64,000 nt of DNA, taken from contig NZ_CP045571.1 of the NCBI RefSeq assembly GCF_009662475.1, positions 1,176,501 through 1,240,500 of the forward strand. Direction: 5' to 3'. The notes below the pieces were generated by a model. The model saw only the letters and a program-made list of their open reading frames with translations, had not been told where the DNA came from and made no database searches. Below, piece by piece: positions 3,828 through 35,852 of the stretch. Within the stretch, counting starts at the first letter, position 1. Each line of letters begins with the position of its first letter. The translations under genes were made by a program, and so were the position numbers. The DNA comes from Acidithiobacillus thiooxidans ATCC 19377 (GTDB taxonomy: Bacteria > Pseudomonadota > Gammaproteobacteria > Acidithiobacillales > Acidithiobacillaceae).

Positions 3828-4305
3828 GCCCTGGTATCACTGGCTGGCTTTTGGTGGAGGCAGTGGCCTATCGCCCATTCTGCCGGGAACCATGGGTACC
3901 ATTGCGGCTGTTCCTTTTTACTTGCTGCTGGTTTTACTGCTGCACAATCTGTGGATATATGCTGCTGTCCTTTTGCTCATGATCGCTGTGGGTCCCCGGC
4001 TTTGTGGTCAGACTGCCGAAGACCTGCGTCACGGTGCAGCCGGCAAGCGTGCCCTTGACCCACCCGCCATTGTCTGGGATGAATGGGTGGGTCTGTTGAT
4101 GACCCTGTACTGGATACCGTTCAGTTGGGCAGCCTTGGGCATCGGTTTTTTGCTGTTCCGTTTTTTCGATATGCTCAAACCCTGGCCCATTTCCTGGTTG
4201 GATCGACATATTCATGGTGGAACGGGCATTATGCTGGATGACATGGCGGCAGCGATTCCGGCTTGGCTGATTTTACAGGGGCTGCGAGCGATGGGTTGGT
4301 TATGA
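3817..4305 (+). CDS. pgpA: Phosphatidylglycerophosphatase A
   Basis: Dephosphorylates phosphatidylglycerol phosphate to phosphatidylglycerol in the inner membrane. 162 residues, the family length. The conserved N-terminal block GGGSGLSPILPGTMGT, the acidic DPPAIVWDEWVG motif and FRFFDMLKPWPI with a following GIMLDDMAA motif are all present, with several hydrophobic segments between them. It begins inside the 3' end of thiL and ends with an ATGA overlap on the next gene, so thiL, pgpA and the CinA-type gene form one translationally coupled unit. Confidence 0.92.
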   Translation: MFSRPWYHWLAFGGGSGLSPILPGTMGTIAAVPFYLLLVLLLHNLWIYAAVLLLMIAVGPRLCGQTAEDLRHGAAGKRALDPPAIVWDEWVGLLMTLYWIPFSWAALGIGFLLFRFFDMLKPWPISWLDRHIHGGTGIMLDDMAAAIPAWLILQGLRAMGWL

Positions 4306-5147
4306 ACAGCGGCGAATTACTGCATATTTTTTTGCCCATGCGGCCAGCGGTGTTGCCCGATGCTCAGCGCCTGGAAGCCTGGGCCTTAAGGAGTGGAGTG
4401 CGTGCGCGCATCGAGCTGACCGCTGTCCTGCCCGATATAGAGGGCGCGGCACTGGGCATCGGCGCTTTTGCCAACGCCGCTGCCTGGAAAGTCATTCCGC
4501 AGCGTGCCTTGGTCCCGGCTGGCGACTGGCAGGGTCTGCGCGATTGGGCTGAGCATTATTTACCACCTTGTCCACAAAGTTTCAGTCACTTTAGCGATCA
4601 GAGTCAGGGCACAGAAATTTTACCCGGTGAATTCTGGCTTCAGGAAAAAACATCGGACGCTTTTGATTTGTCCATGGCGCCACCAGAATGGGCACTGTTG
4701 CAACATTGCTCCAAAGCAGGTGGGCCGCGTTTGGCCCTGGCCGAATCCTGCACCGGTGGCGGCCTCGCAGCCCGGATTACCGCTTTATCGGGATCATCGG
4801 CGCTTTTGCAGCACGGTATAGTGACATATAGCAATACTGCCAAGCGCCACTTTCTTGGTGTACAGGCAAAAACCCTGATGCGCTATGGGGCGGTATCCGA
4901 AGAGACGGCTCTGGAAATGCTCAATGGTCTCCTGCGCGAAGCCGATCTGGGCGTGGCGATTACGGGTATCGCCGGTCCGGGCGGGGCGGTGCCGGGCAAG
5001 CCGGTTGGCACGGTCTGTATTGCCTGGGGACAGCGCAATGGTCAACAACAGGTTCGTACCTGCCATTTTCGCGGTGATCGCTGGAACGTACAGTATGCAT
5101 CCGGATCGTTGGCATTGGGTGGTCTGCTGGGTTTGCTGTGTGGATGA
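4302..5147 (+). CDS. CinA C-terminal-type nicotinamide-nucleotide amidase with an unrecognised N-terminal half
   Basis: The C-terminal ~155 residues are a PncC/CinA amidohydrolase domain: [54 protein letters not shown] and [10 protein letters not shown]. It deamidates NMN to NaMN in pyridine nucleotide recycling. The first ~125 residues ([18 protein letters not shown] onward) do not show the MoCF/COG1058 domain of full-length CinA, and I do not recognise them. ATG overlaps the pgpA stop as ATGA. The gene precedes recA, as cinA does in many bacteria, but the N-terminus makes it a different architecture from classical CinA. Confidence 0.85.
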
Positions 5148-6853: not shown

Positions 6854-9487
6854 ATGCAAGCGCAAGCCATTCGCCAAGCTTTTCTGGATTATTTTGTGGA
6901 ACAGGGTCATCAGATTGTGCCCTCCAGTTCGCTGATTCCCCGCAATGATCCGACCTTACTGTTTACCAATGCCGGTATGGTTCCTTTCAAGGACGTGTTC
7001 CTGGGTCTGGAGCAACGTCCCTACCAGCGCGCTGTTTCTTCCCAGCGCTGCATGCGGGCGGGCGGAAAACATAATGACCTGGAAAACGTGGGTTATACGG
7101 CTCGCCATCATACCTTTTTCGAAATGCTCGGCAATTTTTCCTTCGGGGATTATTTCAAGCGCGAAGTCATTGGCTTCGCTTGGCGATTTCTGACAGAAAA
7201 ACTGAGGCTTCCGGCGGCTAAGCTCTGGATTACGGTTTATGAAGAAGACGACGAAGCCGCTCAGATCTGGATCAATGAAATGGGTATTGATCCAGCGCGC
7301 ATTTCCCGTTGTGGCGCGAAAGACAATTTCTGGAGTATGGGAGATACCGGTCCTTGCGGTCCTTGCTCGGAAATTTTTTATGACCACGGCCCGGATGTTC
7401 CGGGAGGCCCTCCCGGTAGCCCTGAAGAAGACGGGGATCGTTATATTGAAATCTGGAATCTGGTTTTCATGCAGTACGACCGCGACAGCAGTGGGAAACT
7501 GACCCCGCTCCCCAAACCTTCCGTGGATACCGGCATGGGTCTGGAACGTCTCGCGGCCGTTCTGCAGGGTGTCCACAATAATTACGACACGGATCTATTC
7601 AAGCCCTTGATTGCGGCAGCGGCCGCAATTTCCGGCACAACCTATGGTCAGGATGCCACAACGGATACCAGTCTGCGGGTACTCGCCGATCATATTCGTG
7701 CCTGCAGTTTTCTGATTACGGACGGTGTACTGCCGGCTAATGAAGGGCGAGGTTATGTTCTGCGGCGCATCATTCGGCGGGCGGTCCGGCATGGTCGCAA
7801 GTTGGGCATGGAAAACGTGTTTTTTCATAAACTGGTTGCGCCACTGGTACGCGAAATGGGGACGGCCTTTCCTGAACTGGCTCAGGCACAGCGTGATGTA
7901 GAACGTGCTTTGGAGCGTGAGGAAACCCGTTTCCGGGAAACTTTGGAACGTGGCCTGAGTCTGCTGGAAGACGCCATTTCCGGATTGCCCGCTGATGCGG
8001 CCATCCCTGGTGAGATTATCTTCCGATTGGCCGATACCTATGGTTTCCCTGTCGATTTAACTGCCGACATCGCCCGCGAAAGAAACCTGCGCATGGACAT
8101 GGAAGGCTATGAAGTAGCCATGAGTGAACAGCGTAATCGTTCCCGCGCCGCCTGGAGCGGCAGTGGCGAAGTCAAAACCGAGCGGATTTATCACGACCTC
8201 GCCATGCGTCTTGCCGCTACTCAATTTACGGGTTATTCCCAATGTGTGGGTGAGGGAAAAGTGCTGGCGCTGTTGCGTGATGGCGAAGAAGTAGCTTTTC
8301 TTGACGCCGGGGACAAGGGCATCGTGATTCTCGATCAGACCCCTTTTTATGGAGAATCGGGCGGGCAGTCGGGTGATCGCGGCGAATTACAGTCCGAAAA
8401 TGCCGTATTTCTGGTGAATGATACCCAAAAGCCCATGGGCAGTTTGCATGTGCATGTGGGTGTGCTGCAGTCGGGTCGCCTCCAGACAGGAGATATCCTG
8501 CTGTCCAGCGTGGATGAGTTGGCCCGGCGGGCGACCGCTGCACATCATTCTGCCACCCATCTGCTGCATGCCGCTTTGCGCAACATTCTCGGTTCTCATG
8601 TCCAGCAGAAAGGTTCGCTGGTCAATCCGGAGCGGCTGCGCTTTGATTTCAGCCATCCTGAACCCCTGACTTCGGCGCAGTTGCAGGAGATAGAGCGCAG
8701 CGTTAATGCGGTGATTCGTGAAAATTACGCTGCTGATACGCAAGTTCTGCCCATTGCCGAAGCCCAGGCTCTGGGCGCCATGGCGCTGTTCGGTGAAAAG
8801 TACGGTGATGAAGTCCGCGTCGTGCGCATGGGCGACTTTTCACTGGAACTTTGTGGTGGCACGCATGTGCAGGCGCTCGGGGATATGGGGGTTTTCAAGA
8901 TTCTCAGCGAAAGTGGCGTAGCGGCGGGTATTCGTCGTATTGAAGCCGTAGCCGGAGCGGCGGCTCTGGAGCTTATCCAGCGCGATGAACAACGTCTGCA
9001 GGCCGCAGCCAGCTTGCTCAAAGTGGCACCAGCAGATCTGGATCAGCGTCTGGCTCAGACCCTTGAGCGTCTGCGTCAACTCGAAAAAGAACTGGAAAAA
9101 ATCAAGCGGGATGAAGCAGCACGGGCTGGCGCAGATCTCGCTGCCCGAAGTGAAGAGGTGGCTGGTGTGCCGGTTCTCATCAGCCGTCTGGAGGGTATGG
9201 ATGGTAAGGCCTTGCGTGATGCGCTGGATCGTCTGCGCAGTCAGCTTCCCGAAGCCGTGATTGTCCTGGCTGGAGTTGAAGGGGAAAAAGTGGCCTTGAT
9301 TGCTGCTGTTGCGAAAACCCTGGCTGGCCGGATTCACGCGGGTGATCTGGTGAATGTGGTAGCTTTGCCGCTGGGTGGTAAAGGTGGCGGCCGACCCGAC
9401 ATGGCCCAGGCTGGTGCCGGTAATCCGGCGGCACTGGATGATGCGCTCCAGGCCGCCCGCGATTGGGTCAGAAACAAGCTGGCCTAG
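6854..9487 (+). CDS. alaS: Alanyl-tRNA synthetase
   Basis: Class II synthetase charging tRNA(Ala). 877 residues, typical. Domains in order: catalytic core with [31 protein letters not shown] and [18 protein letters not shown]; tRNA-recognition region; editing domain with [12 protein letters not shown] and the zinc motif [13 protein letters not shown]; coiled coil around [14 protein letters not shown]; and a C-terminal C-Ala domain rich in Gly ([14 protein letters not shown]). Start chosen at [10 protein letters not shown], with GGAAG five bases ahead; an ATG 18 bases upstream is the alternative. recA-recX-alaS is a conserved order in gammaproteobacteria. Confidence 0.97.
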
Positions 9488-10140
9488 TGGTTGCCCTGCC
9501 AGGGCTGGCCGTTGCCCTGATTCTGATGTCCACGGTCCGGTTTTGAACCTGGCTGCCCGCGACCCCGCCCCGGACCATTATCGGGACGACCATGTCCGGG
9601 GGCTGGACGCTGAATGGGTTGCGGGCGCTGTTGCATCTGCGGACGATGGGGATGCTGAAACTGTGGACCACCGGGACGCCCCGGTTGCGGCCGCTGCTGC
9701 GGCCCTGGCATGGGCCTTTCTGCCGGACGGAAATGCCGCCAATGCGGGTCTCGGGAATAGCGGCCAGCATCTCTTTGGACGCGCTGCCAATCGCGATGAT
9801 TCCAGCGCCGCAATGCGGGCGGCGGAGCCGCTATGGGGCGCCACGGACCACGATAGCCCGGACCCGACCACCAGCGGTTGCCGTAATAATAATAGTAGTT
9901 GGAGCCCTGATAAAAAATGGGTTGCGAAGCGCCATAGGCCGCATAAACACCCAGATTGCTCAGCCAGACCATCAAGGGCGGCGCCGTAAGAATGGCTGGG
10001 GGGTATCCAGGTGCCGCATACACTGGCTGGGTTCCTACATTGAGTTGTATATCTACGGGGCCAGCAAAGGCCGCACTACTCAATCCCAGTCCCGCCAGCA
10101 CGGCGCTGGTCAAAAGACTTTTTATCCACAATTTTTTCAT
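9484..10140 (-). CDS. Secreted P/Q/R/H-rich low-complexity protein of unknown function
   Basis: 218 residues. A clean Sec signal peptide is seen ([10 protein letters not shown], hydrophobic core, cleavage near SSAAFA-GP). A short region with tyrosine/tryptophan runs ([17 protein letters not shown]) is followed by ~100 residues dominated by Pro, Gln, Arg, His and Gly. It is likely periplasmic or outer-surface; I recognise no enzymatic domain. It converges on alaS and shares a CTAG with it: TAG is the stop codon on both strands. The GAGG ribosome site sits nine bases before the ATG used; an ATG three codons earlier is possible. Confidence 0.7.
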
Positions 10141-10301: not shown

Positions 10302-10853
10302 GTGCCTGAAGTCGCCGAACTGGAAAAACTCCTGCAGAAAGTAGCGCTTGCTGATCAGCAAGCCTTTCGTGATTTTTACGATGCTACGGCTGCGCATCTG
10401 TTTCCCGTTGCTTTGCGTATTTTAAGAGAGCAGGGCCGTGCGGCCGATTGTTTACAGGATGCGTTTGTGAAAATCTGGTTAAAGGCGGGAGAATATCAAG
10501 CGGGTCGGGGCGCTCCCATGGCTTGGGCAGCGGCAATTGTCCGCTATCAGGCTATTGATGAATTAAGACGGCTTCCGAAAGACCAGCCAGGTTGGGAAGA
10601 CGAAAACTGGGAGCAGTGGGGGGAACGGGAATTTCCTGCTGACCCCCGGATGGCTTCGGAAAAGCAACTTTTATTGGATTGCCTTGAACAACTTCCCAGC
10701 GATCAAAGGCAGGCTATTTCCCAGGCTTTTTATCGCGCAGCCAGTTACGACGAAGTGGCGCGCTTTGCTGGTGAAGCTTTGGGTACGGTCAAAAGCTGGA
10801 TTCGTCGGGGACTTTTAAGTTTGAGAGACTGTTTGCATCATGAATCTGAATAA
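10302..10853 (+). CDS. ECF-type RNA polymerase sigma factor
   Basis: 183 residues with sigma-70 region 2 (AFRDFYDATAAHLFPVALRILRE, then AADCLQDAFVKIWLKAGEY) and region 4 (LLLDCLEQLPSDQRQAISQAFYR, helix-turn-helix YDEVARFAGEALGTVKSWIRRGL). Extracytoplasmic-function sigma factors redirect RNA polymerase to stress or envelope promoters. It starts with GTG and its last 14 bases overlap the anti-sigma gene, the usual coupling for such pairs. The RskA-like partner and sequence suggest an ECF19/SigK-like type. The ferritin-like gene downstream is the likely target. Confidence 0.88.
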   Translation: MPEVAELEKLLQKVALADQQAFRDFYDATAAHLFPVALRILREQGRAADCLQDAFVKIWLKAGEYQAGRGAPMAWAAAIVRYQAIDELRRLPKDQPGWEDENWEQWGEREFPADPRMASEKQLLLDCLEQLPSDQRQAISQAFYRAASYDEVARFAGEALGTVKSWIRRGLLSLRDCLHHESE

Positions 10854-29001: not shown

Positions 29002-29005
29002 GTTC

Positions 29006-29200
29006 TAAAAAGGGCAGTTGCCATAGGTACTTTGCAGCGACTTTTGGCCTGCGCCGTTGTTGTTCTTGGCGAAATCCTGCGCCCGTCAGGAGAGCTGTTT
29101 GAGCCCGCAGGGCGAGTTCTCTCCTGACAGCAGGATGAGCCTTAGAACAACAGGCGAGGGACAACGGAGCAAAAAGTACCTATGGCAACTGCCCTTTTTA
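29006..29200. repeat. 195-bp palindromic, MITE-like element
   Basis: Perfect 28-base inverted repeats form the ends (29006-29033 and 29173-29200; outer bases TAAAAAGGGCAGTTGCC). Both ends finish in TA, compatible with a TA target duplication. The interior continues the palindrome imperfectly: GCC-TTGTTGTTCT, ATCCTGC and GTCAGGAGAG each recur in reverse complement, and the apex contains GCCC-GCA-GGGC. The RNA of either strand would fold into one long hairpin. It carries no credible gene. Its ends do not resemble those of either insertion sequence in this window. Confidence 0.85.
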
Positions 29201-29224
29201 GGTGGTGATCTGATTTTCTACAAT

Positions 29225-29285: not shown

Positions 29286-29375
29286 TCAGAACCGCTTGCG
29301 TGTATAAAAATACGCGATGACGGTGATGAAAAAATACACAATGGGCAAAAAGAAAATATAGTCTTCCAGATGCAT
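29286..29375 (-). CDS. 29-residue membrane peptide at the end of the cyd operon
   Basis: Reads MHLEDYIFFLPIVYFFITV then IAYFYTRKRF: one hydrophobic helix with a basic C-terminus, the topology of small oxidase subunits. GGGAG ribosome site eight bases before the ATG and a 12-base gap after the CydX-like gene. It does not match the CydX WYFxWxLG pattern or CydH as I remember them. Likely an accessory subunit or assembly factor of the neighbouring cytochrome bd; evidence is positional. Confidence 0.55.
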   Translation of the reverse strand: MHLEDYIFFLPIVYFFITVIAYFYTRKRF

Positions 29376-29387
29376 GGTCTAACTCCC

Positions 29388-29591
29388 TTAGTGTGAGTGT
29401 CCGGTTTTGTCCTGACTTTCCGCATCCTGTTTTTCATACATAACCGCACCGGCGACGGCGATCAGCACAATCATGGTCGTACCCACCAACCAGGCGAAAT
29501 ACCAGGGGCCATAGTCACCAGTGATGACTGCCAGAAACAGGGATAACGCCATGATGAGAGCCATCCCGACAAAAGTGAAAAGATTTTTCAT
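29388..29591 (-). CDS. CydX-like small subunit with an extra N-terminal membrane helix
   Basis: 67 residues with two hydrophobic helices. The second half, GPWYFAWLVGTTMIVLIAVA followed by VMYEKQ and a charged His-containing tail, resembles CydX/YbgT (WYFxWxLG... then Glu after the helix), the small subunit needed for stability of cytochrome bd. The first half (MKNLFTFVGMALIMALSLFLAVITGDY) is an additional helix not found in ordinary ~35-residue CydX. It follows cydB by 15 bases. Assignment as CydX-like is by motif resemblance. Confidence 0.6.
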   Translation of the reverse strand: MKNLFTFVGMALIMALSLFLAVITGDYGPWYFAWLVGTTMIVLIAVAGAVMYEKQDAESQDKTGHSH

Positions 29592-29606
29592 GACTGGGTT
29601 GCTCCC

Positions 29607-30740
29607 TTAATAAGCATGGTCATCGGCGGGGTTGGGCGGGTTGACCTTGCCGCGCATGACCCGAAAACACCAGGTGGTATAAGCCAAAATCGTGGGTACG
29701 AAAATGGCGGTGAAAATGGTCATCCAGATCAGGTTGTAACGACTTCCCGAAGCATTCCAGATAGTCAGACTTTGGTTGAGATTCTCAGACGAAGGCATCA
29801 GGAAAGGGAACATGGAAGTTGCTACCGTGCCTAAAATGCCAATCCAGGCAATGGCTCCCAACCACCAGCCGAGGATGGGTTTGTTGGCACGCAACATCAA
29901 TGCACCGAACAGCATCCCGGCAATGGCCAGCAACGGGATAATCCACAAAATGGGTTGTGCTGCATAATTATCCAGCCATGCACCAGAAACCGCATGCACC
30001 ACCTGACCACTGACGGCGTTGGCGGGCATTCCCGGATCACCGCTGATGAGGCTATACCCCGTCATGCCGGAAATCATGAAGCCACCAATGATAAACAGCA
30101 CAATGGCAATGATCCCTGCAGTGCTGGCGTAATTCCGGGCGCGGGAAGCAATGGGGTCGGTACCGCGCAGCATCAACATGGCCCCGCCCTGATATACCGA
30201 CATGCTGACCGCCAATAAGCCGCTCAGAATGGCAAAGGGGTTCAACAAATACCAGATGAAGGACTCCGTCTGATAATACTGACCATCCCAACCAAAATGA
30301 AAGCCGACGCCTTCGAGAATATTACCGATGGCTGCTCCATAAACAAACATGGGCAAAAAGCCGGAGACCAGGAAAACCCAGTCCCAGGAATCCCGCCACT
30401 TGCTGGCCGCCACTTTGGAGCGATATTCAAAAGCCACCGGACGTAAAATCATACTGAACAGCAGCAGGATCATGACAATGTAAAAAACTGAAAAAGAAGT
30501 GGCGTAAAGGGTTGGCCAGGCCGCAAAAATGGCCCCGCCGCCCAGAATAAACCAGACCTGATTACCGTCCCAATGGGGACCCACCACATTCAGGGCCTGA
30601 CGGCGCTCGCCGTCATTTTTGCCGACGAAGCGCAGCAGGGTACCAACACCCATGTCCATGCCCACCATGATGGCAAGGCCCATGAGCAGGACGCCCAGCA
30701 GCACCCACCACAATAGTTTAAGTCCAATATAGAGATCCAT
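29607..30740 (-). CDS. cydB: Cytochrome bd ubiquinol oxidase subunit II
   Basis: 377 residues, multi-pass membrane protein, length as in E. coli. Recognised by LKLLWWVLLGVLLMGLAIMVGMDMGVGTLL, GPHWDGNQVWFILGGGAIFAAWP, and FSMILRPVAFEYRSK. CydB pairs with CydA to hold the three haems and the proton and oxygen paths. It lies 12 bases behind cydA, and is followed by the CydX-like gene. Confidence 0.95.
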   Translation of the reverse strand: MDLYIGLKLLWWVLLGVLLMGLAIMVGMDMGVGTLLRFVGKNDGERRQALNVVGPHWDGNQVWFILGGGAIFAAWPTLYATSFSVFYIVMILLLFSMILRPVAFEYRSKVAASKWRDSWDWVFLVSGFLPMFVYGAAIGNILEGVGFHFGWDGQYYQTESFIWYLLNPFAILSGLLAVSMSVYQGGAMLMLRGTDPIASRARNYASTAGIIAIVLFIIGGFMISGMTGYSLISGDPGMPANAVSGQVVHAVSGAWLDNYAAQPILWIIPLLAIAGMLFGALMLRANKPILGWWLGAIAWIGILGTVATSMFPFLMPSSENLNQSLTIWNASGSRYNLIWMTIFTAIFVPTILAYTTWCFRVMRGKVNPPNPADDHAY

Positions 30741-30752
30741 TGTGTTGCCTCC

Positions 30753-32387
30753 TTATTTCTTGGCCAGACTGGGCTTGGCAAAAACGGGCTGACCGGCCAT
30801 ACCGCCCCCGGCAGGAGCCTTGTCATGACCATGATGGCTGGCTTGTGGGCCAAGACGCGCGTATTTGAACATCAGGTACATTTCTGCAGCGATGAACGAG
30901 CTGTAAAGCAGTACAAAACCGATCAGGGAGAAAATCATGTAGCCGACGCTGTGACTGGAAGCTGACACAAAGGTGGGCAACATATTGTAAACCGTCCAGG
31001 GTTGCCGACCATTTTCTGCCGTAATCCATCCAAATTCACAGGCAAACCAGGGTAATGGAATACTCCATAAGGCGACTTTCAGGAGCAGGGGATGCTTTTC
31101 CACCTCATTTTTGAGGCTGAAATAGGCGGCAAATGCAAAAATGGCGAGCATGATAAAGCCGAAAGCCACCATGATACGGAATGCCCAAAATTCTACCCAG
31201 ACATTGGGAACCGTTTCGTGAGCCGTTTTGTCCACGACGCTGGCGAGATTGCTGGCATCCACCTTTTTCAGGTCCTGATCAGGGGCGTACTGCATGGCCA
31301 GAAAGCCATAGCCCATGTCTGTCTGATACTGTTTGAAGGTCGCCAAAGCCTGCACGTTACTGTGGTCATGATTATATTCTTTCAGGGCAACCATGGCCTT
31401 GATGCCATTAACTACTTTGGGCTTGGCTTCATCCACCAATTGATGAATACCGGGGATGACGGTGTCCTCCGAGTGGGTAAGCAGAGGCGTCAGCACATAG
31501 GGAACACCAATTTCAAAAAGGTTTTTACCTGCAGCCTTATCCGGGAAAGCAATCAGATTCCAGGGTGCAGATGCCGTGTTGTAGTCTGTATTCCAGATGG
31601 CTTCCATGGCCGCCACTTTCATGGGTTGAGCCTTGGCGTCAATGAAGCCCAGTGCATCGCCCAGAGTCACCACACCAATGGTGGAAATCACTCCGAAAAC
31701 GGCAGCAATACGAAATGAACGCAGGGCAATATCCTTGCGCTTGTTGGTGAGCAGATAGAAGGCACTGATCCCCATGACAAACATGGATCCGGTCACAAAA
31801 CCGGCGATGGAGGTATGGACAAATTTTGCCTGAGCGTCTTCATTAAAAATCAACTGGACAAAGCTGCTGAATTCCAAGCGCATGGTATTGGGATCAAAGG
31901 TTCCGCCTCTGGGGTCCTGCATGAAGCCATTGGCGATCAGAATCCACAATGCGGAAAGGTTGGAGCCCAGCGCTACCAGATAGGTAACGACCAGATGGGC
32001 CTTGGCACTGATCCGGTCCCAGCCAAAAAACATGATGCCCACAAAGGTGGATTCCATGAAAAACGCCATCAGGCCTTCAATAGCCAGAGGCGTACCAAAA
32101 ATATCTCCGACGAAATGGGAGTACATGGACCAGTTGGTACCAAACTCAAATTCCATGGTCAGGCCCGTGGCCACACCCAATGCAAAATTGATGGCGAAAA
32201 GCTTGCCCCAGAACTGGGTCATTTCCTTGTAAATGGGTTTCCCCGTGATGACATAAACCGACTCCATGGTGGCCAGCAGAAATGACAGGCCCAGAGTCAG
32301 GGGTACAAACAGAAAGTGATACAGGGCTGTCAGCGCAAACTGCAGACGCGACAGCTCGACCACCGTGGGATTAATTAACATATCCAT
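30753..32387 (-). CDS. cydA: Cytochrome bd ubiquinol oxidase subunit I
   Basis: Quinol-oxidising haem subunit reducing O2 to water without proton pumping. 544 residues. The start MDMLINPTVVELSRLQF has AGGAGG six bases upstream. His24 in ALYHFLFVPLTLGLSFLLA corresponds to the high-spin haem b ligand; GWITAENGRQPWTVYNML is the conserved GRQPW block. A long Q-loop with KEYNHDHSNVQALATFKQYQ and MGYGFLAMQYAPD places it with the E. coli-type long-loop group rather than CIO. The C-terminal tail (SHHGHDKAPAGGG) is His/Gly-rich. The operon is led by a sigma-54-type promoter. Confidence 0.95.
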   Translation of the reverse strand: MDMLINPTVVELSRLQFALTALYHFLFVPLTLGLSFLLATMESVYVITGKPIYKEMTQFWGKLFAINFALGVATGLTMEFEFGTNWSMYSHFVGDIFGTPLAIEGLMAFFMESTFVGIMFFGWDRISAKAHLVVTYLVALGSNLSALWILIANGFMQDPRGGTFDPNTMRLEFSSFVQLIFNEDAQAKFVHTSIAGFVTGSMFVMGISAFYLLTNKRKDIALRSFRIAAVFGVISTIGVVTLGDALGFIDAKAQPMKVAAMEAIWNTDYNTASAPWNLIAFPDKAAGKNLFEIGVPYVLTPLLTHSEDTVIPGIHQLVDEAKPKVVNGIKAMVALKEYNHDHSNVQALATFKQYQTDMGYGFLAMQYAPDQDLKKVDASNLASVVDKTAHETVPNVWVEFWAFRIMVAFGFIMLAIFAFAAYFSLKNEVEKHPLLLKVALWSIPLPWFACEFGWITAENGRQPWTVYNMLPTFVSASSHSVGYMIFSLIGFVLLYSSFIAAEMYLMFKYARLGPQASHHGHDKAPAGGGMAGQPVFAKPSLAKK

Positions 32388-32397
32388 GAACATCCTC

Positions 32398-33123
32398 CTA
32401 CAAAGAAACCGGGTTGTTCCGGTCCGGCGTGTAACGGTGCACCTCTTCATCAGGTGATCCGGGTTTTTTTACTGCGTTACTGCTTTTACTGGTGCTATTG
32501 GTGAACAGGCGGGAATACTTTTGAAAAATTTCCCGATGTCCATTTTGGTTATGGAACCAGTTGTCTTTGCGGCGGACTTCTTCAATGCTCGTCAGGCGTC
32601 TTTCCTTGGTTTCGAGACCGGGGTATACCAGGGTTTCTCCTGGAAATGTCATTAATTGTTGAGTAATACTTTGATAAAGTACTCGCGTATCATCTGTGCT
32701 GGGGCAGGGCAGGGTGCTATTGACCAATAAGGTTTTTCCAGTAAACAGGCGATCCTCCCAATGGTAAGTGAGGGCGCAGGGACTTTGTCCGGGAGTATGC
32801 AAAACCTGCAGGCTTTCTTCGCCAAAATAAAGGCGATCGCCATGGCGCAAACGCAGATCAATCTGACTGTTTGTATTACTCTCATGAGCCAGCACCCGCG
32901 CCCCAGTGGCCGTCTTCAGCTCTTCTGCCGCACTCATCTGTTCGACCTCATGGTGGGTCTGCAATATGTACGTCAGGATGAGGCCCCGCTCCTGAATAAA
33001 TAGTGCGAAACTTTCCAAAAGCGCAGGCACCGGATCAATAATGACGGCTTCCCGAGTGACGGGATCACCCAGCAAATAGCTGAGTGCGCCTTTTTGGGAA
33101 TCACATAGTTGTCTAAAAATCAT
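32398..33123 (-). CDS. ETHE1-like metallo-beta-lactamase-fold protein lacking the usual metal ligands
   Basis: 241 residues. The frame of the persulfide dioxygenase/glyoxalase II group is recognisable: MIFRQLCDSQKGALSYLLGD, LHTPGQSPCALTYHWEDRLF, TGKTLLVNS and PGETLVYPGLETKERRLTS. Nevertheless the metal motif THxHxDH reads THHEVEQ (56-62), the later ligand His in TPGH is Gln113, the bridging Asp of GDTL is Lys130, and the His of YPGH is Leu170. Only one of the normal ligands remains. An additional ~50-residue polar C-terminus follows. First gene of the cyd operon, ten bases before cydA; a sensor, chaperone or redirected-metal role is open. Confidence 0.8.
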   Translation of the reverse strand: MIFRQLCDSQKGALSYLLGDPVTREAVIIDPVPALLESFALFIQERGLILTYILQTHHEVEQMSAAEELKTATGARVLAHESNTNSQIDLRLRHGDRLYFGEESLQVLHTPGQSPCALTYHWEDRLFTGKTLLVNSTLPCPSTDDTRVLYQSITQQLMTFPGETLVYPGLETKERRLTSIEEVRRKDNWFHNQNGHREIFQKYSRLFTNSTSKSSNAVKKPGSPDEEVHRYTPDRNNPVSL

Positions 33124-33162
33124 CTGCTCCACCGTCAGTTGCCACCGGACGTCAGAGCATCA

Positions 33163-33177
33163 GCAAACTCTGTGCCA
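33163..33177 (-). promoter_or_regulatory. Sigma-54 (-24/-12) promoter of the MBL-cydAB operon
   Basis: On the minus strand the sequence reads TGGCAC-AGAGT-TTGCT, a full match to the TGGCAC-N5-TTGCW consensus. Transcription would start near 33151, about 28 bases before the ATG of the MBL-fold gene. The divergent neighbour encodes a sigma-54-dependent activator. Confidence 0.85.
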
Positions 33178-33225
33178 TTTTCAGGAGTTTGTATGCGGAT
33201 ATCCTTTTTATGAAAAAACATCATT

Positions 33226-33247
33226 ATTTCAATGTAATATTTGAAAT
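33226..33247. promoter_or_regulatory. Inverted repeat in the cyd/activator intergenic region
   Basis: ATTTCAA (33226-33232) and TTGAAAT (33241-33247) with an 8-base spacer. About 50 bases upstream of the -24 box, where IHF or an activator could bind. Function not established. Confidence 0.35.
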
Positions 33248-33303
33248 TTGGGCGGTATATTTTTCTGAAGGCCTAGTGCCCCTGCAGCCGCACACCCGTA
33301 AAC

Positions 33304-33317
33304 TGTCAAAAATGACA
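33304..33317. promoter_or_regulatory. Candidate activator site TGTCA-N4-TGACA
   Basis: Perfect inverted repeat TGTCAAAAATGACA, centred about 135 bases upstream of the sigma-54 -24 box, the distance typical for enhancer-like sites. It also lies just before a weak promoter for the activator (TAGACG-N16-TACAAT, -10 at 33340-33345). GTCA...TGAC half-sites recall NorR binding sites, but this is a resemblance only. Confidence 0.45.
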
Positions 33318-33377
33318 TAGACGATTTGGCAGAGACTGCTACAATTGTCAGTGCGCAGGTGCTGCGGCGGGAGGTTT

Positions 33378-34709
33378 ATGACTGATTTACTGAAACAATT
33401 GCGACCTGAAATGACTTCATTACTGGATTGTTTTAGTACTCCGGCAGTACTTTTGTGCGCCGACTATACAGTATTGGCCGCCAATCAGGCCTACCGGCGC
33501 GCTTTTGGCGATGGCAAACCCCTGCAGGGTCGACGTTGTGCGGAAATTATGGCCGAGGCGGGGTTTGCCTGTCAGCAAAGTGGTAATCACTGTCCTCTGG
33601 ACAACTGTCAGCAGACGGGCGTGGATCAGCATGTAGTCCATTCCCATACCTCGGGAAATACCCAAATTGATTTGTACCCTATTCGTAATGAACGCGCCGA
33701 AGTCGTTTATTTTCTTGAATTGCTGAATGTGACCCCCGCAGACGCAACGCATGGGACACCGGCTATGGTCGGCCAATCGGAGGCCTGGCGGGAGGTAGTG
33801 CGCCTCATTCGACGGGTAGCTCCCGGTGATGCGGCAGTGCTCCTTCTGGGGGAATCCGGAACCGGCAAGGAACTGGCTGCAGCGGCGGTACATCAGGCCA
33901 GTCATCTCAGTCACGGACCCTTCATCACCGTCGATTGCTCCGGTTTGCCGGAAACACTTTTTGAAAGCGAATTGTTTGGTCATGAAAAAGGCGCATTTAC
34001 GGGTGCCCAGTCCCGAAAAACCGGTTTGGTTGAAGCCGCCAATGGGGGAACCTTGTTTCTGGACGAAGTGGGTGACATTCCTCTTAACCTTCAGGTGAAA
34101 TTGTTGCGGCTTCTGGAAACCGGCACGTTTCGCAGGGTAGGGGGGGTTGAACCGATTCGTTCCCGGTTTCGACTGATTTCAGCAACGCACCGTCATCTGG
34201 AAAAAATGGTCGCAGAGGAGCGTTTCCGTCAGGATCTTTATTATCGTATCAACACGTTCCCCATTGCTTTACCGGCGTTGCGGGATCGTCTGGATGATAT
34301 TCCCTTGCTGGCCGCAGCCATTTTGCAGCGCATCCCGGCAGCCAAGGGGCTGCAACTGCACGCTGATACTCTACAGTTGCTGGGTCAATACACTTTTCCG
34401 GGCAACATCCGCGAGTTGCGCAACATTCTTGAACGCGCGGCGCTGATGGCCGATGAACATTGGATACTCCCCCAGCATCTGCCCCTGGCCCTGCAAGAGC
34501 AAGGCACGCCGCCCAAACAGGATAATCATGCCAAAATTTCCGGCTTGGATGCCATTGTTCCCTTGGCTGATCTGGAGGCCCAGTATTTACGATGGGCGCG
34601 GAGTGCTTTTGGCGGGGATCGACGCAGTCTGGCCGCCCGGCTGGGTGTCAGTGAGCGCACCCTTTATCGTAAGCTGGATGCCTTGAAGGAAGCACATGGT
34701 CTTGAATGA
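33378..34709 (+). CDS. Sigma-54-dependent transcriptional activator with cysteine-rich PAS input domain
   Basis: 443 residues. N-terminal PAS-like region ([26 protein letters not shown]) carries four closely spaced cysteines, C-x10-C-x6-C-x4-C, around [16 protein letters not shown]+ domain: Walker [15 protein letters not shown], the sigma-54 contact loop GAFTGA in [12 protein letters not shown], Walker [13 protein letters not shown], arginine finger region [15 protein letters not shown]-terminal Fis-type helix-turn-helix [22 protein letters not shown] ribosome site. Divergent from the sigma-54-promoted cyd operon, its likely target; signal may be redox, NO or sulfane sulfur. Confidence 0.9.
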
Positions 34710-35379
34710 AAATATCTGGCCCGAAGGCTTGTGGATCCGAGCCGCAGCGCAGCAAGAGGCCCCCTGCATTATGTTGATGCATGGCCTGGGCGCATCCAAA
34801 GAAGACCTTGCTCCCCTCGCAGACTTTGTCGATCCGGAAAAACAGTTTCGATGGGTTCTCCCCGATGCTCCAGTACGTCCGGTCACTCTCAATGGCGGGC
34901 GGCCAATGCGGGCCTGGTATGATATTTATGGGCTGGGTCGGGATTCTGGCGAAGATGCAGCGGGAATGGAACACATGGCGACTCGCCTCGCTGCGCTGAT
35001 GGAGCATGAACAGCAGCAGGCAGGTACTCAACCCTTGATACTGGGCGGGTTTTCCCAGGGCGGGGCGATGGCGCTTTATTTGGCTTTTCATCATGCTTGT
35101 CCGGCGGCAGCTGTGCTGGCTTTCAGCGCCTATTTACCGCTTCGCCAGACGCTTCCTCAGTCCGCTCAGGTGACTCCGATTTTCTGGGGGCATGGTCGTT
35201 CCGATACCGTTCTGCCTTTGGAATATATGGAAATTGCCCGCGACATCATGGAATCCCTGGGGTACGCTCTCAGTACCCATATTTATCCCATGGATCATAG
35301 TATTTGTGCGGTAGAGCTTGTGGACGCACGGAAATTTTTGGACAGCATAGTCATGCAAGGAAATTTGAAAAAATCATGA
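34696..35379 (+). CDS. Carboxylesterase/phospholipase-type alpha/beta hydrolase
   Basis: 227 residues, matching the EstB/YpfH-like dienelactone-hydrolase subgroup. Oxyanion region [15 protein letters not shown], nucleophile elbow GGFSQGGAM with the catalytic Ser, Asp in [14 protein letters not shown] and His in [14 protein letters not shown]. No signal peptide, so cytosolic; substrate unknown. Its start overlaps the end of the activator gene by 14 bases and its stop overlaps the next start as ATGA, indicating cotranscription with both. Confidence 0.87.
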
Positions 35380-35852
35380 ATACCCTCTGGATTGAGCAGT
35401 TTGTACATATACTCGCGGTGATTGTCTGGATTGGCGGCCTGTTTTTTGTGACGATGGTGCTGGCCCCGACCCTGAAAAAAGAAATCACGCAGAACAGTAC
35501 GCGTATTGCCTTGATGCATGTGTTGCTGCGCCGTTTCTTTTTCTGGATGTTGCTCGCGGCTTTCCTGTTATTGCTCACGGGTTATAGCATGGTGTTCGTT
35601 TTCTACGGGGGATTTGCCGCTCTGACCATCCCCGAATGGATTATGGTGGTATTAGGCACGATCATGGTGATGATTGTTCTGCATACTTATTTTGCACCAC
35701 TCAAACGGCTGCGCCGGGCGGTACGTGATGAGGACTGGCAGGCGGGTTCGAAAGCCCTGGGTCAGGTGCGAATGCTGGCCAGCACCAATCTTGTGCTATC
35801 TTTTATTGTCATTCTGGTGGGGATATGGGGCGTGTTTGGCACGCCCTGGTGA
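35376..35852 (+). CDS. CopD-like four-helix membrane protein
   Basis: 158 residues, about four membrane helices. The opening WIEQFVHILAVIVWIGGLFFVTMVLAP matches the CopD/DUF2269-like pattern (His followed by WxGG), and a second His occurs in the third helix (IVLHTYFAPLKRL). Such proteins are linked to copper uptake or haem-dependent membrane electron transfer. Translationally coupled to the upstream esterase by ATGA. Family-level assignment only. Confidence 0.7.
   Translation: MNTLWIEQFVHILAVIVWIGGLFFVTMVLAPTLKKEITQNSTRIALMHVLLRRFFFWMLLAAFLLLLTGYSMVFVFYGGFAALTIPEWIMVVLGTIMVMIVLHTYFAPLKRLRRAVRDEDWQAGSKALGQVRMLASTNLVLSFIVILVGIWGVFGTPW

Follow-up and report, generated by a model that had tools for sequence, protein, structure and literature searches.

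A divergent FisR-type activator and a degenerate persulfide dioxygenase at a sigma-54 cytochrome bd operon of Acidithiobacillus thiooxidans

A 64,000-nucleotide stretch of the Acidithiobacillus thiooxidans ATCC 19377 genome (hereafter, the window) holds an operon for a bd-type terminal oxidase, cydA-cydB-cydX followed by a gene for a 29-residue peptide. The operon is headed by the gene of a degenerate relative of persulfide dioxygenase (PDO, or ETHE1), here called pseudo-PDO, and lies divergent to the gene of a sigma-54 activator. Our analysis indicates that a sulfane-sulfur-responsive switch, made up of a FisR-type activator and sigma-54, probably drives the transcript from pseudo-PDO to the peptide; this is the best account of the locus because of the FisR-type identity of the activator, the promoter, and the dyads upstream of it. 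Comparison establishes the operon, its promoter and dyads, the FisR-type identity, the fold of pseudo-PDO, the loss of its metal site, and purifying selection on it. An earlier note, made from the sequence alone, had described the gene set and its order, and the listing of open reading frames in the window and Pfam both agree with it.

Promoter and dyads of the cyd operon

The promoter, TGGCACAGAGTTTGCT, lies on the minus strand at positions 33177 to 33162, with an expected start site at about 33151. It has the -24 GG and the -12 GC at the right spacing, stands at the head of the operon, and is the only match without mismatches in the window to the pattern TGGCAC-N5-TTGCW, bearing out the claim of a consensus -24/-12 promoter. 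With up to two mismatches, the window contains 46 matches, against a mean of 50.8 after shuffling; therefore, the weight of the promoter rests on its place and conservation. We scored a promoter as a match at 9 or more of 11 positions in the last 110 nt before a gene, and a dyad as TGYCA-N4-TGRCA within 320 nt. All 23 cyd-linked loci examined have a sigma-54 site matching at 10 to 11 of 11 positions, 46 to 55 nt ahead of the start codon (first-order resampling gives a mean of 0.57), and all 23 have the dyad (resample mean, 0.065); these loci are kin and hence do not amount to 23 independent events. Among 41 loci with an intact PDO, the promoter was found in three and the dyad in one. The window has two dyads on the minus strand, 33 bp apart, which the earlier note did not mention: the left one, CTGACAATTGTAGCAG (33336 to 33351), is part of the putative activator site and is conserved in two alignments, and the right one is TGTCATTTTTGACA (33304 to 33317). 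A pair of dyads 31 to 33 bp apart occurs in the window and in six other cyd-linked loci examined.

The orthologous operon of Acidithiobacillus ferrooxidans (first gene, AFE_0956) shares this promoter. Published work on it maps the start sites, assigns a sigma-54 promoter along with a second promoter of the sigma-70 type, names AFE_0957 as the predicted sigma-54 activator, predicts an IHF site, and proposes that RegA competes with AFE_0957 or IHF (Moinier et al. 2017, PMC5506826). Sigma-54 control of this kind of cyd operon is thus not new, and the earlier note's word "undescribed" is not supported as it stands. Both published promoter stretches can be located in one related locus (L044), the sigma-54 promoter just before the pseudo-PDO gene and the sigma-70 promoter within the activator gene. 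The counterpart of the latter in the window lies within the activator gene as well (33666 to 33719, minus strand) and matches at 43 of 54 bases, a degree of likeness that coding conservation alone could explain.

In the accessible part of PMC5506826, AFE_0957 is not called FisR-type, AFE_0956 is not called a PDO relative, "metallo" has no matches, and neither the dyads nor the paralogs at other operons appear. A second paper mentions AFE_0957: in a strain overexpressing afeI, this sigma-54 regulator gene is lowered on S0 (PMC7984328). A full-text search for AFE_0956 or AFE_0957 by full tag gave a single paper, although shortened tags, as in PMC7984328, escape such a search, and a search joining Acidithiobacillus, "cytochrome bd", and "sigma-54" gave nothing, although PMC5506826 exists under other wording. 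These absences are weak for that reason. What our analysis adds to the A. ferrooxidans account is the FisR-type identity, the dyads that accompany the promoter in related loci, the pseudo-PDO family, and its paralogs at bo3 operons and one petII-type operon.

The FisR-type activator and its candidate signal

As the earlier note held, the divergent gene (33378 to 34709, plus strand) encodes a sigma-54 activator, with a PAS-like N-terminal domain, an AAA+ domain with GAFTGA (Pfam Sigma54_activat, 226 bits), and a Fis-type helix-turn-helix domain (HTH_8, 26.2 bits). The cysteines of the N-terminal domain, Cys54, Cys65, and Cys72, are invariant in 11 aligned members of the host's order, and their spacing, C-x10-C-x6-C, is that of the Cupriavidus metallidurans FisR. 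In strain CH34 of that species, the activator with this spacing is divergent to intact PDO-like and SQR-like genes. A quick tree separated 70 FisR-like rows from 12 other A. thiooxidans activators (SH-aLRT, 96), these 12 own-genome activators being its sole outgroup and the split copy described below being absent from the rows shown. Of 52 distinct FisR-like sequences, 51 have all three cysteines, and none of the 12 other activators does; these counts are not independent of the search, which used a model containing the three cysteines. One copy (L133) has Ser at position 65. A literature search for three exact FisR cysteine numbers gave unrelated papers only. The A. thiooxidans genome also contains rpoN and a second FisR-like gene (L185, C1:2846000-2865000; 7058 to 9876), interrupted by an open reading frame of 441 residues that, by eye, looks like a transposase; this gene is whole in relatives (L202 to L207).

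The N-terminal domain has matches at E ≤ 1e-6 in 73 of 369 genomes of the host's class. We examined 19 FisR-like loci outside the host's order: 11 have an SQR-like gene, three have bd-I-type cydAB (L167, L168, and L182), two have distant cydAB-like genes together with an SQR-like gene (L173 and L175), and five have none of these reference genes. The proximity of FisR to cydAB is thus not confined to Acidithiobacillus. Where cydA is linked to FisR without a pseudo-PDO, only L168 has a good -24/-12 match upstream, at -256; under the same rule, L167 and L182 have none upstream of cydA.

In the mechanism that we favor, the activator would bind the two dyads, roughly 110 to 190 bp upstream of the promoter; modification of Cys54, Cys65, and Cys72 by sulfane sulfur (persulfide or polysulfide) would switch it on; and the modified activator would drive sigma-54 RNA polymerase through the operon, so that a bd oxidase of the sulfide-tolerant type would be made when reactive sulfur accumulates. 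We infer sulfane sulfur as the signal by kinship with the FisR/sigma-54 regulon of Cupriavidus and Acinetobacter, which is alike in activator architecture, in a divergent sigma-54 target operon, and in a PDO-related first gene; unlike that regulon, the operon in the window has a PDO that lost its metal site, and cydABX and the peptide replace sqr and other genes. The earlier note had taken the ETHE1-like protein as pointing to sulfane sulfur or H2S. The link to sulfane-sulfur biology stands, by way of the FisR-type activator and the PDO-fold protein, as does the bd-type oxidase, but the degenerate protein alone does not show that either is the signal. Levels of cydAB in A. ferrooxidans are raised on sulfur relative to Fe(II) (PMC2754497).

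Several observations weigh against this account. The FisR of Acinetobacter baumannii lacks the Cupriavidus cysteines and still responds to sulfide (PMC7315123), so that having the cysteines is no proof of the signal. The operon of that FisR is pdo-sqr-tauE instead of cydAB, and the cydAB of that species is sulfide induced outside the FisR operon (PMC7315123). The A. ferrooxidans operon is also subject to RegA and to the second, sigma-70 promoter (PMC5506826). The dyad alone is unspecific, since with up to one mismatch it gives 33 to 60 sites per genome, against 14 to 28 for the reversed pattern (seven genomes), and outside the host's order it precedes one of six pseudo-PDO genes. Finally, in one genome (G005), this FisR stands next to thiC although CydA has no match there and the matches listed include no pseudo-PDO; therefore, the parts are separable.

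The same switch could instead answer to another signal, with the three cysteines reporting O2, redox state, NO, or a bound metal. Such a signal would suit bd oxidases, for which low O2 or NO is a common inducer, and the evidence tying the N-terminal domain to sulfur is at the level of fold and cysteines only. The link of the redox regulator RegA to the A. ferrooxidans operon (PMC5506826) would also agree with it. We nevertheless regard a signal other than sulfur as unlikely, given the SQR-like neighbors of FisR-like genes in 11 of the 19 loci outside the host's order, the C. metallidurans gene divergent to pdo-sqr, and the descent of pseudo-PDO from persulfide dioxygenases in our tree.

The pseudo-PDO family

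The pseudo-PDO gene (32398 to 33123, minus strand) most likely starts at the ATG at 33123 and not, as noted earlier, at a GTG at 33132: GGAG lies just upstream of the ATG, and the resulting MIFRQ... is the N terminus common to relatives. The product matches Pfam Lactamase_B (26.3 bits; cutoff, 22.7), and its structure model (pLDDT, 82.7; low in the C-terminal tail, residues 191 to 241) has ETHE1 (4ysb; TM, 0.74/0.79) as its top fold match. It resembles persulfide dioxygenases, such as the SDO of Acidithiobacillus, in fold and in an identity of about 35 to 43% to intact homologs, but it has lost the metal-site residues and gained Cys116. At the seven positions compared (HxHxDH, H, D, and H), the window protein reads HEEQQKL, against HHDHHDH in all 26 intact rows. 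Matches to the protein at E ≤ 0.001 were found in 37 of 40 relatives, many of them intact or distant family members. Our scan of named genomes gave 57 loci, 29 degenerate, 26 intact, and 2 broken or partial. With the window added and a frameshifted copy (L089) removed, 29 degenerate rows were compared with the 26 intact ones; besides L089, the alignment omits L134 and L135 (broken or partial) and L075, L166, and L182. None of the 29 rows has the full metal site; as judged from the alignments, the degeneration seen by the earlier note is a family-wide trait.

Cys116 is present in 29 of 29 degenerate rows and in 0 of 37 intact rows, where the column has Gly (26 rows) or, in 11 further rows from another alignment, Gly (5), Glu (4), or Val (2). 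The cysteine is missing from three more remote degenerate copies: L075, which has Asp, and, as judged by eye, L166 and L182. A careful tree of 65 rows requires two changes between degenerate and intact forms, and the AU test does not reject a single origin (p = 0.362); the placement of the three remote copies is unsure because of their long branches.

Pseudo-PDO may still be an enzyme, with another metal arrangement or with Cys116 as the active residue, for example in sulfur transfer. The fixed Cys116 is consistent with this, as are two rows from outside Acidithiobacillus (L112 and L116) that retain H57-H113-D130, which we take to be the ETHE1 iron triad. This triad is absent from the other 27 rows, including all those of Acidithiobacillaceae, and none of the 29 has His at residue 170, so that we consider enzymatic activity improbable. 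We reject an active PDO in Acidithiobacillus on the metal-site residues lost in the Acidithiobacillaceae rows. As far as alignments can tell, loss of activity is firm only outside L112, L116, and L182, because these three keep the putative triad (L182 by eye). In L182, the PDO-like gene (4010 to 4882) lies downstream of the FisR-cydAB pair, with HxHxDH partly lost and the other ligands kept (by eye), and it is possibly a separate degeneration event.

The dN/dS ratio of pseudo-PDO is 0.085 to 0.181 in 10 of 11 pairs, which indicates purifying selection, and on this ground we reject a decaying pseudogene. The 11th pair, whose copies have cydABX missing or not seen, has a ratio of 0.367. In Acidithiobacillus concretivorus ATCC 19703 (L089), the gene is frameshifted at about 10306 to 10311 with cydAB intact downstream, which is either a natural knockout or a sequencing error. 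The frameshifted copy and the higher ratio would fit a locus of ordinary neighbors, in which promoter and degenerate gene came together by chance or decay and have no joint function. Against the low ratios in the other pairs and the order, promoter, and dyads conserved in 23 loci, this is highly improbable.

Degenerate copies also occur at other operons. In six genomes, one stands directly before cyoA-cyoB-cyoC (bo3 oxidase; L032 to L036 and L038), whose CyoA and CyoB match their own models best, yet under the strict cutoffs. A sigma-54-like site, with TGGA replacing TGGC, lies 54 to 55 nt upstream in five of these six loci, the dyad is present in five of six, and all six genomes have this FisR. 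This suggests some of the Acidithiobacillus cyo operons as further members of the regulon. A further copy (L037) precedes a cytochrome c/SDR/Rieske set like petII, with a LysR-type gene upstream. Its counterpart in L031 is followed by channel-like and transposase-like genes, so the petII context is shown by L037 only; neither locus has the promoter or the dyad. The gene ccoN (668 bits in L106) follows a copy in four loci (L106, L110, L112, and L116) after a gap of about 330 to 510 bp, and a joint operon is therefore not shown. The L116 copy sits at the contig start, and any FisR neighbor would be off the contig. In L166, the copy lies between FisR-like and SQR-like genes.

The separate, monophyletic copies before cyd, cyo, and one petII-type operon, and those upstream of ccoN, could mean that pseudo-PDO serves the oxidase encoded with it, in an accessory role or in assembly, and is not a sulfur protein. 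Besides the ccoN gap, the L166 copy without an oxidase speaks against this, as do the copy lacking much of its second half (L075) and two metagenome-assembled genomes (L086 and L087) that keep promoter, pseudo-PDO, and activator. In L087, cydABX is missing and thiC comes directly; in L086, no cydA is seen up to the contig end, about 0.4 kb past the pseudo-PDO gene. We think an accessory role rather unlikely. One of these two genomes (G002, 90% complete) has no CydA match, and in the other (G007, 85% complete and 5% contaminated), a partial CydA is found at another site and the activator has a second locus. In two further genomes (G012 and G013), cydA is gone together with the cyd-type pseudo-PDO; the activator still adjoins thiC, and a cyo-type pseudo-PDO is present. 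As these loci and G005 show, the activator outlives cyd, and pseudo-PDO is bound strictly to neither partner.

Our favored guess is that pseudo-PDO, as a soluble ETHE1-fold protein with Cys116, binds or carries persulfide and in this way either restrains FisR or works with the oxidase in sulfur handling.

Oxidase subunits, neighboring genes, and implications

All oxidase genes lie on the minus strand. CydA (30753 to 32387; 543.7 bits in Pfam) most likely starts at the ATG at 32387, with GGAGG 6 nt upstream, and is nearest among solved structures to subunit 1 of Escherichia coli bd-II (7ose) and bd-I (6rko). CydB (29607 to 30740) scores 311.1 bits in Pfam and 369.7 bits against TIGR00203 (cutoff, 117.3). 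The CydX-like protein (29388 to 29591), conserved in 19 of 19 loci, matches Pfam YbgT_YccB (26.8 bits; cutoff, 26.2) and falls under the cutoff of TIGR02106 (26.4 against 31.6). With all three subunits present, the enzyme is a bd-type oxidase with CydX, although this last score is below cutoff. It differs from the E. coli enzymes by an extra N-terminal stretch of the CydX-like protein and by the 29-residue peptide (29286 to 29375), a hydrophobic product ending in TRKRF that may be an extra bd subunit. The peptide is conserved in 19 of 19 loci, in many of which an ATG a few codons upstream is the likely start (about 33 residues); it matched no Pfam family above cutoff, and a search for a solved relative gave none. 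The A. thiooxidans genome holds eight CydA-family matches, and the window copy is alone among them in heading the E. coli-like group; with eight, bd-type oxidases are strongly multiplied in this genome.

The earlier note had called for a survey of the gene order across genomes. The order thiC/peptide-cydX-cydB-cydA-pseudo-PDO/activator-esterase-lpd is kept in most of the larger cyd-type regions fetched, some cyd-type contigs stopping early, and in a genome from another family of the same order (G025, L075: activator, 54%; CydA, 53%; pseudo-PDO, 32%), where much of the second half of pseudo-PDO is lost. In the window, an element like a miniature inverted-repeat transposable element (29005 to 29201), with perfect terminal inverted repeats of 29 nt, separates thiC from the operon; it has 42 matches in the genome, a few of them fragments or self-matches. 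An esterase-like gene (34696 to 35379) and a small membrane-protein gene (35304 to 35852) come after the activator and remain with it after cyd loss (L198, L199, and L200).

If the sulfane-sulfur switch operates as we propose, it would mean that organisms living on sulfur choose their terminal oxidase in direct connection with the sensing of sulfane sulfur, and it would supply a candidate signal for the sigma-54 cyd promoter mapped earlier in A. ferrooxidans. It would also define a pseudoenzyme family in which loss of the metal site coincides with the gain of one fixed cysteine. A wider idea, which we put forward only tentatively, is that pseudo-PDOs are a new class of noncatalytic persulfide-binding proteins: an ancient PDO lineage may have exchanged its iron site for Cys116 and come to stand first in several respiratory operons (bd, bo3, and one petII-type; elsewhere upstream of ccoN or an SQR-like gene), where it would read sulfane sulfur or deliver it to FisR or the electron-transport chain. 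Respiration would then be matched to the sulfur load through pseudo-PDOs.

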